A DNA stretch of 64,000 bases from Glossina fuscipes (lineage: Eukaryota > Arthropoda > Insecta > Diptera > Glossinidae), in NCBI RefSeq assembly GCF_014805625.2, contig NW_023998433.1, forward strand, positions 3,609,647 through 3,673,646, given 5' to 3'. The position numbers and the translations under genes are program-made. Below, in pieces: positions 13,911-60,465 of the stretch. How positions within the stretch are numbered: position 1 is the stretch's first letter; each line of letters begins with the position of its first letter. Under the pieces are notes generated by a model, which saw nothing but the letters and a program-made list of their open reading frames with translations, did no database searches and was not told the origin of the DNA.

Positions 13911-13922
13911 TAAATTATGTGA

Positions 13923-14075
13923 TCCGCCTGAGTAGCCGAAGGGGAGGAATCTCGACTAGCAAGTCAATGGTCGTGGGCTCGAATCTCAAGTGCGGTAGAG
14001 TTTTTAATAAAAGCCAATAGCCTTAGATGCTAGTGCTTTTAAGAGTTTAGTCTTAGAATTTATTTCTGTGGCGAA

Positions 14076-14121
<46 letters not shown>
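13923..14121 (+). mobile_element. tRNA-derived SINE, copy 1, with LINE-like 3' tail
   Basis: The 5' half is tRNA-like: an A-box-like segment at 13933-13944 (TAGCCGAAGGGG) and a B-box at 13976-13985 (GGCTCGAATC), spaced as in a tRNA promoter for RNA polymerase III. The head most resembles a Ser/Leu-type tRNA (inference). The 3' half (14012 onward) matches the 3' end of the I-clade LINE at 54620-57771: AGCCAATAGCCTT, three bases, TGCTAGTGCT, then a (TAA)n tail. A 12-bp target-site duplication, TAAATTATGTGA, flanks it at 13911-13922 and 14122-14133. SINEs have no protein and rely on a LINE reverse transcriptase. Confidence 0.88.
14060..14120 (+). repeat. (TAA)n microsatellite, SINE tail
   Basis: Pure (TAA)n from about 14079 to 14120, preceded by the SINE 3' end. 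I-clade LINEs are known to end in TAA repeats, so this is interpreted as a transposition tail rather than an independent microsatellite. Confidence 0.85.
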
Positions 14122-14134
14122 TAAATTATGTGAA

Positions 14135-42600: not shown

Positions 42601-43255
42601 TACCTTTACGAATGACGTAAATCAGTCGCTATTAACAGACACCTAGAAATTGATATCGTTTTCGTAGAAATATTTTCCGTATATTATTCGCTATCTGTCC
42701 ATTCACGTCTGACTTTTACTTAGCATTCCATAGTCAAGCTAAGTGATATATCAATAGAATTTTCTTCTTTTTGATGAACATTTCGGTCCGTTTTAGTCCC
42801 ATTAGTTGAGCTAAGAGTATCCTACAAGGCGGACTGTGTCGGTAATTTGTGTTACGTTGTGGAAATGATGTATGTAAAAACGAAGTACATTATGGGGCTT
42901 TATGATGCCTTAAATATCATCCGCCTCAGTTTCAGCCGTGTACTGACAGACAGGTGCACCTTTTCGGGAGTGTCCTTGGTTCTGATTATTCTAAACTCGC
43001 GGAAACATTATATATTTGACGTGGTAAATAGGTCTCGCCTGACCCTAAAGGGAGGCAATTGTCCACATCTATGGCCCATATACAGAAGTAAATAATTAAA
43101 GATTATTCCTTAGCGACAATTAGGGACCATTATTCTTGTGATGCCATGATTACCCTTTCAAATTACCCCATATATCATCAACAGTGCCGTAGAATTTGGC
43201 ATTTTCAATGCAACCGTTCACGTCAAACTCTAGAAACAATCCTGTTCAGGGTACG
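39610..43255. other. AT-rich non-coding stretch, no gene seen
   Basis: Long A and T tracts and TATATTTA-rich segments (41180-41215). The 82-residue ORF at 42847-43095 has no recognised motif and no splice context. Confidence 0.5.
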
Positions 43256-43262
43256 TTTTTTA

Positions 43263-43440
43263 TCCGCCTGGATGGCCGGGTAGGCAAGAGTCTCGACTAG
43301 CAACTCAATGGTCGTGGGTTCAAATCTCAATGCGGTAGAGTTTTTAATAAAGCCGAAAGCCTTAGATGCTAGTGCTTTAAGGCTTAGAATTTATTTTTTG
43401 GCTAAATTTATAATAATAATAATGATAATAATAGTAATAG
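43263..43440 (+). mobile_element. tRNA-derived SINE, copy 2
   Basis: Same family as 13923-14121. Both bodies start at TCCGCCTG, have a B-box (here GGGTTCAAATC) and share the 3' block TTAGATGCTAGTGCT ahead of a degenerate (TAA)n tail. The flanks suggest an eroded duplication (GGGTACGTTTT before, GGATACGTTGT after). It is more diverged and shorter than copy 1. Confidence 0.85.
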
Positions 43441-43671
43441 GATACGTTGTAATGGCGTATTTAAAAGATTACGGTTTATACTTTGCTGGGTTGCAGCCAC
43501 TATGAACGCTATTTATGTTTCTCAAATCCCTCTCTCTTTTCAACACATAGACACATACAATGATCGTTCCGTAAAGTACATGACTTTTGTTCGTCTGCCT
43601 GTATTGATATTTAAGTCGCTATTTTAAAACCTTATATGAAAGGACGTTCTTATTATCTCTTCCTCTTATAT

Positions 43672-44610
43672 ATATGCCCTACACCACTTGTGGTCCAGGG
43701 TATATTAAGTTTGTGCGGACATATCTAACACGCAGAAGCATTTAAGATAGATTCACTTTTTATTATCGATCTAGTTCTGTCTGTTCGTCAGCCCGCCTGT
43801 CCGTCTGATGCCTGCCCATGTAAATCTGTTTTCTAGCTACGCGTAATTTTTGAGATATTTTGATAAAATTTACTATACTATAGTGTTTTGGCCCAAGGAC
43901 GAACGCTATTGGAAATGGTTTGGGTGGGTCCGCTTTTTCGAAGACTGGCCATATAACGACTTATTTGGAAAAATCGTTGTATGGAAAAATTTCAATTTTT
44001 AAAATTGCTCAACAAAAGTGGTTAAATAAGAGTATTTCGGCTTTCTAAATTGGTATAAGTACTTTGGACTTGCTGTGACAGATTTTGATCCCGCTCTTAT
44101 ATAACGGAAACTGAAGTTCATGCGACAAAAAGGTACAACTTGCAATGCTTTATGATAAAAATCAGATCATAATAAATTAAGCTAAAAAAATTAGCTGTGT
44201 TCAATTTGGACCATCTCAGTCTATTTTTAGACACTTATCCTATATATCGATTTTTTCGAAAATTTATCCTTTATAGAGCAGAAAAATTGAAATTTTAATA
44301 TTTGATGATGAAAACTAACCCTTAATAGTAATTTAAGATAAAAAAATTCACCATACTGAATTCTGAATACGTATCACAGATTTTTGAACGTTTCCTTCTT
44401 GGGCACCACGACTTTTTACTTCTTACGGAAAGTAAGCCCTTATTTGCAAAGAGCTCTAATTTTTAATATACAGTTCCATAATAGCAAGTTCCTATAAAAA
44501 GAGGACATAATTTTTGTGTTCTATGGCAAAAATAAGTAATTCGGTTAGACAATGTGGTGTAGGGTATTTATATGTCGGTCTAGCGCGACTATAATACTTT
44601 CCCTTGTTTT
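43672..44610 (+). mobile_element. Family B inverted-repeat non-autonomous element, fullest copy
   Basis: The left end contains GCCCTACACCACTTGTGG and the right end contains AATGTGGTGTAGGGTATTTA, an inverted pair built on (T/G)ACCCTACACCAC-like sequence. About 0.9 kb long. The interior has a CTGTCCGTCTG-rich segment, a TGGCCATATAACGACTTATT block, and no coding capacity. The distal right end CGACTATAATACTTTCCCTTG is also shared, inverted, with the copy starting at 48830, so the true terminus lies at or beyond 44605. Confidence 0.72.
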
Positions 44611-48829: not shown

Positions 48830-50195
48830 AAACAAGTGAAAATATTATAGTCGGGCTAGGCCTACTTTTAAATACCCTACACCACATTCCTTATTTTTAC
48901 CATAAAACCCAAAATTATATCTTGGTTTTATAAGAACTTACTAAATATACTAATATATATAATAAAGGCTTACTCTCCGTAAGAAGAAAAGTTTGTGCCT
49001 AAGAAGAAAACGTTCAAAAATTTGTGGTACTTATTCAAAATTTAGTATAGTGAATTTTTTTATGTTAAACTACTATTATGGGTCAATTTTTATCATAACA
49101 TGAGATGGTCCAAATTTGGTGTGGTTAACTATTTTTATGTTAAATTACTATTATGATATAATGAAGAATTAATTATATCTTTTTGTCGCATGAACTTCAG
49201 TTTTCATTATATGAGAGCGGGTTCAAAGAATTACCTCAGCTCAGGTCCAAAGTTTTCATACCAATTTAGAATGCTGAAATAATATTACAGAGCGAGTTTT
49301 GCCAAAAAATTTTAAAAATTGCAATTTCTTTCATGTGATGGGTTTTCAAAATAGGCCGTTATATGGCGAATACTCGGAAAAGTGGACCGATCCGCATCAA
49401 TTTTAATGGCGTTCGTCCTTGGATTAAAACATGGCAGTGTACCAAATTTCATCAAAATATCGCAAATATTGCGACCTCTAGCTTGAGTCAAAGATTACAT
49501 GAACAGATATTAGACAACCATAGGGCAGACAAGGCAGACAAGCTTAGATCTGTTCGGAAAATGATTCTGAAATGATCAGTACAATAAACGGTGGATTTAT
49601 CTTAACCGTTTCTGGGTGTTATATATATACCCTGTATATGACAGCAACGATGGGAAGACGATTCAGAAGGAAGGTGGACATACACACTTATCATACAATA
49701 ATGGATGCGGAGTAAACACGGACAAGTTAGTTTTTTTCTAATGTAAATTTTGAAGTTATCTGTGTCGTTTCAACTTACTAGCAGATAATGCATGCCATAT
49801 ATGCCAAGGTATAAACAATGACACGCAGCACACTGTTTTCGTCTGTCCGGTTTAGGCATATTTGAGAAACATGCTGTTCAGATCTCTGCGAGTAAACTTG
49901 CGCCAAGTAGCATTCTAGCGGGCATGTTAATAAATAGCGAAAAATTGAGGATATGGACCGATGTTGTGCAAGACATGCTTTGATCTAAACCTCCACGAAG
50001 GCGATATCTGAACCCATAATCTTAGGTGAGAACGGGATGTAGGATGACATAGGGAAGATCAAGAATCCATAAGGGCCCATGTCGAGGTAATGCGAAAACT
50101 GTTTCGGGATGGCTTTGGCTAGTTGCCAGGGCGATTCCACTACGTTTAAAAAAAAATATATATACCGTGTACCGCAAGTGGTGTAGGGCACAATA
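48830..50195 (-). mobile_element. Family B element interrupted by an R1-type LINE tail
   Basis: Inverted relative to 43672-44610. The end TACCCTACACCACATT lies at 48872-48887, followed by the same interior blocks in reverse order (ACTTCAG, ATATGAGAGCGGG, GTGGACCGATCCGCATC). The other end, CCGCAAGTGGTGTAGGGC, is at 50172-50189. The element is split by an insertion at 49637-50158. Confidence 0.75.
49637..50158 (+). mobile_element. R1-type LINE 3' tail inserted in a family B element
   Basis: The plus strand encodes, with frameshifts, the C-terminal Cys/His region of an R1/LOA-like LINE ORF2: a W-x-R-SKHGEVN-like start (clearer in the second copy), CRFNLLADNACHICQG, NDTQHTVFVCPV, then ILAGMLINSEKLRIWTDVV and QDML with a terminal TGA near 49983. 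A 3' UTR and a short A-rich tail end at about 50158. A near-perfect 13-bp target duplication flanks it: TATATACCCTGTA (49624-49636) and TATATACCGTGTA (50159-50171). Confidence 0.8.
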
Positions 50196-50279
50196 ATAAA
50201 AAAAATTCATTTCCTATATTACGGTGGAGAAAAAGTAAAAAAGGGCTTTCTATTTATTCTCCTTGTGTAAGATTATTTG

Positions 50280-54106: not shown

Positions 54107-54619
54107 TACTTTAATTTCGAAATCTTGTGAAATGATAATTTTTGCACAAAAATGGCGAACTTTTCCAAATTTATATAAATTCACACGTAACAGTTCAAGA
54201 TTTCAAATCAATTCAGTATTATCCGTTTGCTCTTGCGACCATAAATCTTTCTGCTGCTTAAACTCTAACAAATTTAAACAAAAAAAAAAAAAAAAATTGG
54301 AGAATATGTTTTTGCTTGAACCTAAACCCTTCAAGTTTAAGGTGGGTATTATCTGTTTACAAACCTATTTACTTTAAAATACTTTTGTCAATAGTTCGCG
54401 ACATACGGTATAAAATAGGTTGATATTTGGTGCAATGAAATTCCTGCAAAAATCGAACCGCTAGAAATGTTTACAGTCATCTAAAAAAGAGTGATAAGTA
54501 TTCTAACGCCTTGAGAAGCATATATTTAGGAAATACTTAGCACTTATCCGACTGGGAGTCAATATAATCGATCAATATATATTCACGTAAAGTTTCGAAC
54601 CTGTTATAATTTGAAAGTA

Positions 54620-57494: not shown

Positions 57495-57783
57495 TATGCC
57501 TTATGTCTATTATTTAGTAATTTGAGAAAAGACTATTCACTCGGAACTAGTAAAGAAAACGTCAATTGTTTTCAATTTTTTATTTTTTTGTTTTTTGTTT
57601 TTCTATTTTTTTATTATATGTAAAAAAGCACATACGGTATCCGCGATATCTAGTTTTTGCAAAAACACTGGAAAGACACGAGTTAAATACACAAAATCGC
57701 CGAAACAATTAAAAAATCGCAGACAAAAAAGAAAACACGCACTACTCAGAACACAGGTCGACTACAAATTGAATTTGAAAGTA

Positions 57784-59269: not shown

Positions 59270-60465
59270 AAAGCCCACATATTGGAAACCATGATATGAC
59301 ATGATCCAAATTTAGCAAATTTAATTTAATTCCTGAAAATTTTATTATCTTTCAGTTTCCGTCATTGAAAAATAGAGTGTATACTTTCTCTCCATATAAG
59401 AGCTTGTCGTTCATAATAGTCTTTATAGATGTTAAGGTCCGAATTCCCTATAGTTAATTTTTTTGATTAATTTTTTTACTATGGACCAGTTTTCATGATC
59501 AAATATGAAAAATTAAATCCTTTTCTGTAAGGTTTACTATTCATGAGAACTTTTATATGGAGTGGGGTTCAAAAATAGACCCACTTGGTTTAAATTTGAC
59601 ATTTAGACCTTCTTATCATATAAAGATTTAAATTTCGTAGGTACGATTATATGGGGGCGTGTTCAAAATATTACACCAAATTTTAGAAGGTCGAAATACT
59701 TTAAGACAGCCAGTTTCCCAAAAAATGTTGTAAATTGCATCATTTTTTAAAATAAGGCGAAAAGTGGACCGAGCGCAATCACTTTCAATACCGATCGCTT
59801 TTCGTTCAAAACACGTCAATGTAACAAATTTCATCGAAAGATCGCAAAAATTTGGAACTTTAGTTTGAACCAAACAATACGTGGACAGACATCCGACGGA
59901 CAGATAAGCAGACACGCTTAGCTCTGTTCAGAAAATGATTCTAAAACGATCAGTACAATAAACGGTGGGTTTCTCTTAAGCGCTTTGCGGGTTATGTATA
60001 TACCCTGTATATGACAGCAACGGTGGGAAGACGATTCAGAAGGAAGGTGGACATACACACTTATCCCAAACATACACAACAATGGGTGCGGAGTAAACAC
60101 GGAGAAGTTAATTTTTTTCAACGTAATTTTTCCCGAGTCATCGAAATTTTTGGAGTTATCTGTGCCGTTTCAATTTACTAGCAGATAACGCATGCGCTCC
60201 AGGGTATAAGCAATGACACGCGGAACATTGTTTTCGTCTGTCCGGTTTAGGCATATTTGAGAAACACGCTGATCGAAGGATGGAGGAAATGGGCCGGTGT
60301 TATGCAACGCACGGTTTGATATAAAGCCCCAAGAAAGCGATATCTAAGCCCGTAATCTTAGGCGAGGACGGGATGTAGGATGATATAGGGAAGATTAAGA
60401 ATCAATAAGGGCCCATGTCGAGGTAATGCGAAAACTATTTCGGGATGGCTTTGACTAACTAGAAC
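59270..60465 (+). mobile_element. Second copy of the composite: family B plus R1-type LINE tail
   Basis: The left part (59270-59990) matches family B as at 49080-49620 (TGGACCGA, CATCGAAAGATCGCAAAAAT, AAACGATCAGTACAATAAAC). The right part (from about 59992) matches the R1-type tail at 49637-50110 with the same left junction, TATATACCCTGTA. In this copy RSKHGEVNFF and CRFNLLADNAC are readable, but a deletion removes part of the end. Homology stops near 60465, before the poly(A). Confidence 0.78.

Follow-up and report, generated by a model that had tools for sequence, protein, structure and literature searches.

What mobilizes the SINE at 13923-14119 of this stretch, and does the LINE lineage found in the same stretch provide the machinery? 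The DNA analyzed here is a 64-kb stretch of tsetse sequence (the window, which means the whole of that stretch). From its letters, the original prediction proposed that a SINE and an I-clade LINE in the window share their 3′ end and TAA tail, and that the LINE mobilizes the SINE. In our analysis, the SINE very probably consists of a tRNA-like head joined to the 3′ UTR of a co-resident I-type LINE, whose lineage very probably mobilizes the SINE in trans.

A shared 3′ module in the window

The window contains a pair of SINEs on the plus strand and a pair of LINEs on the minus strand. All four copies carry a common 3′ module and end in (TAA)n. The order of the module is the same in all four, with AGCCnAnAGCCTk-nnn-TGCTAGTGCT followed by a GTCTwAGAA...TTATTT-like stretch and then by (TAA)n. 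The features of the four copies are as follows.

13911-13922 (+): left target-site duplication TAAATTATGTGA of SINE copy 1
13923-14119 (+): SINE copy 1 as a whole, consisting of head, LINE-related tail and (TAA)14
13923-13998 (+): tRNA-like head of SINE copy 1, with an A-box-like stretch at 13927-13944 and a B-box-like stretch at 13973-13987, both read by eye
13999-14077 (+): LINE-related tail body of SINE copy 1, based on alignments compared with shuffles
14012-14037 (+): shared block AGCCAATAGCCTT-AGA-TGCTAGTGCT, corresponding to both arms of predicted hairpin 1 and its apical loop
14046-14066 (+): second shared block TTTAGTCTTAGAATTTATTTC, identical to LINE copy L092 at 20/21 positions and to the LINE majority at 18/21
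14078-14119 (+): (TAA)14 end of SINE copy 1
14122-14133 (+): right target-site duplication TAAATTATGTGA of SINE copy 1
43263-43439 (+): SINE copy 2, more diverged, whose head and tail are of the same type and whose shared block lies at 43351-43376
35589-33519 (-): LINE copy 1, 5′-truncated, with the end of the reverse transcriptase (RT), RNase H, 3′ UTR, block at 33613-33588 and (TAA)n
57771-54620 (-): LINE copy 2, with 5′ end, an ORF1-like frame and part of ORF2, the RT/RNase H region missing
54712-54687, 54669-54653 (-): block and second block of the 3′ module of LINE copy 2, which has a (TAA)n end
57772-57783 (-): 5′ target-site duplication TACTTTCAAATT of LINE copy 2
54608-54619 (-): 3′ target-site duplication TACTTTCAAATT of LINE copy 2

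The two blocks that had been reported for one SINE and one LINE with the same 3-base spacing are present, as AGCCAATAGCCTT-AGA-TGCTAGTGCT in SINE copy 1 (14012-14037, plus strand) and as AGCCAATAGCCTT-TGC-TGCTAGTGCT in LINE copy 2 (54712-54687, minus strand). The further motifs named there, GTCTTAGAA/GTCTAAGAA, TTATTTC and the (TAA)n ends, were all found in SINE copy 1/LINE copy 2. The span of 13923-14121 proposed for the first SINE is also correct, since a perfect 12-bp duplication, TAAATTATGTGA, lies on either side of it (13911-13922 and 14122-14133). The module also occurs in two places absent from the original prediction, at 43351-43376 in SINE copy 2 with 2 mismatches and at 33613-33588 in the 3′ end of LINE copy 1 with 3 mismatches. 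A 6-bp match, TACGTT, flanks SINE copy 2 (43252-43257 and 43443-43448) and is a possible decayed duplication.

Other repeats occupy parts of the window. The segments 49377-50121 and 59759-60457 are collinear direct-repeat copies, ~74-95% identical depending on the segment, and represent a different dispersed repeat with no apparent relation to the SINE or the LINE. Inverted-repeat arms, 72-89% complementary and ~4-6.5 kb apart, form a run at 43666-44609 and 48830-50199 and contain GTGGTGTAGGG-like stretches.

Likeness of the tails compared with chance

Two AT-rich tails that terminate in a common simple repeat might resemble one another by chance. Within the window, the SINE-LINE local alignment scores of 36, 49, 39 and 37 were equalled by 0, 0, 0 and 1 of 2,000 dinucleotide-preserving shuffles, respectively. 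The same comparison on samples from the genome, a test named in the original prediction, did not refute that prediction, with majority tails aligning far better than shuffled sequence. The SINE majority tail scored 42 against the LINE majority (0/5,000 shuffles as good, shuffle maximum 35) and 56 against LINE copy L092 (0/5,000, shuffle maximum 32). The half of the tail downstream of the two blocks still scored 37 against L092 (0/5,000 shuffles) and, more weakly, 27 against the LINE majority (8/5,000). Aligned end to end, with gapped positions left out, the SINE majority was identical to L092 at 61/73 positions and to the LINE majority at 59/73, and SINE copy 2 at 57/70 and 55/70, with alignment scores reached in each case by 0/2,000 shuffles. 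When the window was cut into 2,556 pieces of 100 bases, both strands included, the best-scoring pieces outside the SINEs were the two LINE 3′ ends (44 and 41; the next piece scored 27). Chance likeness was rejected on these two grounds, the shuffle tests, where the full-tail scores were met by 0/5,000 and 0/2,000 shuffles, and the ranking of the two LINE ends among the window pieces, and we give it next to no probability.

The second shared block is closer to L092 (20/21) than to the LINE majority (18/21), which suggests that the SINE tail may have been captured from an L092-like LINE subfamily.

Identity of the LINE

LINE copy 1 is 93% identical to genome copy L091. A Glossina fuscipes fuscipes protein matches LINE copy 1 with 93% identity over 87% of the query, and matches elsewhere in the genome with 100% identity. 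A protein search of the genome returned stop-free LINE frames of 1,241-1,246 aa among the matches listed. The ORF2 of L091, read as it stands, contains endonuclease, RT and RNase H domains above the Pfam cut-offs. In the frame upstream, one zinc knuckle was detected below the cut-off (E 0.0045; 17.5 vs 20.8 bits), with more CCHC-like motifs visible by eye, and the ORF1-like frame of LINE copy 2 gave no Pfam match. Taken together, the element has the architecture of an I-type LINE, with a CCHC-type ORF1 and an ORF2 that comprises an AP endonuclease, an RT and an RNase H, and the TAA-repeat 3′ end expected of an I-clade LINE was present in 30/30 loci chosen by protein query P0001. PMC3747384 describes TAA repeats at the end of the I element. 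The RNase H, the CCHC-type ORF1 and the TAA repeats fit an I-type element, an assignment made by architecture and tail. Jockey-type elements are not known to have RNase H. Among the database matches listed for ORF2, the named minority of relatives carry the automatic names 'jockey' or 'X-element' or are called uncharacterized. Four relatives on short contigs (P0111-P0114) are closer, with 45-52% identity across 98% of the length, compared with 35-42% for the named tephritid relatives.

Identity of the SINE

The SINE is a dispersed family, with many copies flanked by target-site duplications, and its 3′ tail shows homology to a LINE from its own genome except for the last 12 nt in the young SINE. 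The A- and B-box-like stretches of the head, recognized by eye, are kept across 40 aligned copies. No tRNA was called in the head by ARAGORN, run on the window, or by Rfam, run with L001-L003 included and at E values up to 5, so the head is termed tRNA-like on account of these two visually identified boxes. From the sequence of the head, the SINE would be transcribed by RNA polymerase III (pol III).

At least 40 copies have a head that is 100% identical to the family majority. In contrast, SINEs are described as very scarce in all tsetse genomes in a passage of the six-genome tsetse paper (PMC6721284). Taken together, these two observations suggest that a young SINE family was probably overlooked in tsetse annotation and left unclassified. 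Insertions of this SINE could serve as population markers in a disease vector.

Occurrence of the block among copies in the genome

The genome searched comprises 366 Mb in 709 contigs, and the window corresponds to positions 3609647-3673646 of one of these, C441. A search with the whole SINE yielded 1,899 loose candidates, from which the best 40 full-length matches (97-100% identity, window copy included) were taken; the block is present in 40/40, with no more than one mismatch, in a sample possibly biased because the query contained the tail. These 40 copies lie 0-7 alignment columns away from their 155-nt majority. A second search used the 76-nt head of the SINE and gave 1,488 candidates, of which 40 matches were listed, all 100% identical, and 20 fetched. 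The figures of 1,899 and 1,488 are first-look candidates and not copy numbers. In the head-only sample, the block was found, again with no more than one mismatch, in 19/20 copies and TAA repeats at the end in 20/20. Most SINE copies in these same-genome samples carry the block, the opposite of the outcome named as refuting in the original prediction, and this includes the 19/20 that were picked without the tail. The exception, L116, is a SINE with its own duplication that has a deletion inside the block, with part of hairpin 1 missing and the flanking tail and TAA array present; the deletion may have arisen after insertion. Copies were sampled by best score and are mostly young, the sole old SINE included being SINE copy 2 of the window.

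Protein query P0001 was used to choose LINE loci, and 30 were taken from the 85 matches listed. The block (at most one mismatch) is present in 28/30 and a TAA array of at least three units in 30/30. The two loci without the full block are L036 and L038; L036 has a short deletion inside hairpin 1, and its flanking tail and TAA array are kept. With a Haematobia protein, P0007, as the query, 20 loci were fetched out of further matches, a set that overlaps in part with the P0001 loci. TGCTAGTGCT was found with at most one mismatch in 19/20 of these, L109 being the exception, and a TAA array of at least four units in 17/20. Thus, no second tail type appeared among the fetched LINE loci. As an exact pattern, the shared block had no match in the viral_contigs or genome_contigs collections.

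Target-site duplications and insertion sites

Target-site duplications of at least 8 nt were found in 54/60 SINE copies, compared with 121/3,540 mismatched flank pairs, and most were 11-13 nt long (32/54). Of these duplications, 49/54 have a TA among their first three bases, with the caveat that a leading A or AA may belong to the TAA array. TA makes up 9.2% of the dinucleotides in the window, from which we estimate that about a quarter of duplications would have it over three positions. The duplication of L128 falls within a TAA repeat and is unsafe.

For the LINE, 20 copies were analyzed, each over a 1.2-kb stretch spanning the place where its 5′ end was expected. Duplications of at least 11 nt were found in 10/20 copies, compared with 4/380 mismatched flanks, and the other 10/20 gave none. 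The LINE 5′ end motif is present in the fetched stretch of 10/20 copies. TA lies within the first three bases of 8/10 LINE duplications, and in the strictest set, in which the match lies at most 25 nt from the 5′ end motif, 5/7 have a TA start. Two copies, L012 and L027, have a duplication match and no 5′ motif, the match in L036 is 90 nt from the motif, and a 10-nt match in L024 sits 301 nt inside the element. LINE copy 2 of the window has TACTTTCAAATT on both flanks. In seven copies (L010, L011, L013, L014, L015, L033 and L038, with 5′ flanks L071, L072, L074, L075, L076, L087 and L090) there are 4-24 bases between the 5′ duplication and the common LINE 5′ motif GAGTCGACTTGTGTT.

Duplications that start with TA fit a primer that would end in TA or TTA and pair with UAA repeats. 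Found in both the SINE and its presumed partner LINE, the two families that this comparison covers, they tie the pair to one type of endonuclease and RT independently of the tail sequence.

The last bases of the young SINE

One part of the tail does not follow the LINE. In the young SINE, the 12 nt that immediately precede the array (CTGTGGCGAAAT) are unlike the LINE end, with scores equalled by 1,052 and 1,047 of 2,000 shuffles, and the corresponding terminal part of SINE copy 2 is weakly LINE-like (44 and 45 of 2,000 shuffles). Either recognition does not depend on these bases, or there is a LINE that fits better; such a LINE, with a tail closer to that of the young SINE, may be present somewhere in the genome. 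If so, the tail could have been taken long ago from this LINE lineage, and the current mobilizer would be a different, closer I-type LINE family that ends like the young SINE. The mismatch of the terminal 12 nt with both the LINE majority and the L092 tail speaks for such a change of partner. On the other hand, the loci fetched with both protein queries, which overlap in part, mostly show one tail type (28/30 for P0001 and 19/20 for P0007), and the TA-start duplications fit the LINE described here; we therefore consider a change of partner unlikely, and mobilization by the co-resident LINE is the reading followed below.

Predicted RNA hairpins

Folded as RNA, both tails are predicted to form two hairpins ahead of (UAA)n. 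Predicted hairpin 1 is alike in SINE and LINE, with AGC/GCU and UAGC/GCUA stems and a CGA/GU internal loop. In this model, the two blocks of the original prediction would be the arms of hairpin 1, and the variable bases between them would be part of the apical loop. This loop has 7 nt, CUUAGAU in most SINE blocks and CUGUGUU in most LINE blocks. The pair just outside it, which closes the loop, is A-U in 59/59 SINE blocks and G-C in 46/49 LINE blocks, where the LINE counts are not independent since loci overlap (L009-L038 and L092-L111). This difference is suggestive only, a single compensated change fixed between the families and not recurrent covariation. For the whole tails, folding surpasses that of shuffles by a modest margin (SINE z -1.74, 13/200 shuffles as good; LINE z -2.51, 2/200), and hairpin 1 alone gives z-scores of -1.44 and -1.52. 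The stem pairs of hairpin 1 are kept in nearly all counted blocks of both families, a retention that says little for young copies whose blocks were selected by sequence pattern.

These observations bear on what the RT would recognize. It is possible, if somewhat doubtful in our judgment, that the same LINE mobilizes the SINE by recognizing (UAA)n only, the upstream likeness being a passive relic of the origin of the SINE. Such recognition agrees with the TAA repeats at the end of the I element (PMC3747384, in the passage cited above), with L116, which lacks part of the hairpin and yet has a duplication, and with the modest folding z-scores. Retention of the hairpin 1 stems and compensation of the closing pair point the other way, with little weight given the young copies and the pattern-picked blocks. 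Recognition of (UAA)n only is at odds with just the hairpin step of mobilization by the co-resident LINE and leaves the rest of that explanation in place.

Probable mobilization of the SINE by the LINE

Nearly all examined copies share the tail, the duplications mostly start with TA, the sampled SINE copies are near-identical, and LINEs with an open ORF2 are present. From the shared tail, the similar duplications and the open ORF2, we infer that the SINE is mobilized by this LINE, in support of the original prediction. After pol III transcription, the SINE RNA would end, like the LINE RNA, in two predicted hairpins and (UAA)n. The LINE ORF2 protein, with its endonuclease, RT and RNase H, would bind this end, presumably by recognition of the hairpin, and would nick the target to leave a primer with TA or TTA at its end. 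The primer could then pair with the UAA of the SINE RNA, and the SINE would be copied in trans by target-primed reverse transcription. The tail that makes this possible may itself have been captured from a LINE subfamily like L092.

A broader proposal, which we put forward tentatively, is that the young, numerous and probably mobile SINE family was missed by annotation and that its hairpin 1 is a specific docking signal for the I-type RT. If this is true, I-type LINEs recognize a structure and not UAA repeats alone. The comparison of SINE and LINE isolates a small candidate RNA signal, together with a natural variant of it, that can be used for testing recognition by an I-type RT.

Comparison with known systems

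The original prediction also suggested that a SINE paired with a TAA-tailed I-type LINE in a fly may be undescribed. As a kind, such pairs are already on record. Gecko, a tRNA-SINE of Aedes aegypti, is listed in Table 1 of PMC3747384 with a tail of the I-clade LINEs I-74_AAe, MosquI and others. Like the tsetse SINE, Gecko has a dipteran host, a tRNA head and the tail of I-type LINEs; it differs in that the host is a mosquito, and the two are likened by description and not by sequence. SINE3 families have a 5S rRNA head. One element listed among them, not tRNA-like in contrast to the tsetse SINE, is SINE3-1_TC of the beetle Tribolium castaneum, which seems to be mobilized by the I clade according to a passage of PMC7245038. 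Gecko and SINE3-1_TC indicate that an I-type LINE serving a SINE was already known in insects, dipterans included. HaSE1 of Helicoverpa armigera matches the end of the LINE HaRTE1.1 over its 3′ end (43 bp, 82%), as given in part of PMC3272025. HaSE1 is also an insect tRNA-SINE with a partner LINE that terminates in trinucleotide repeats, and differs from the tsetse SINE in that HaRTE1.1 is RTE-type and has TGA repeats at its end.

The part of the suggestion that stands concerns the tsetse pair itself, for which no published description appeared among the open-licence papers listed; this is weak evidence, and a record may exist. The tsetse SINE and LINE are a well-supported new example of a kind of partnership that is already known from Gecko.
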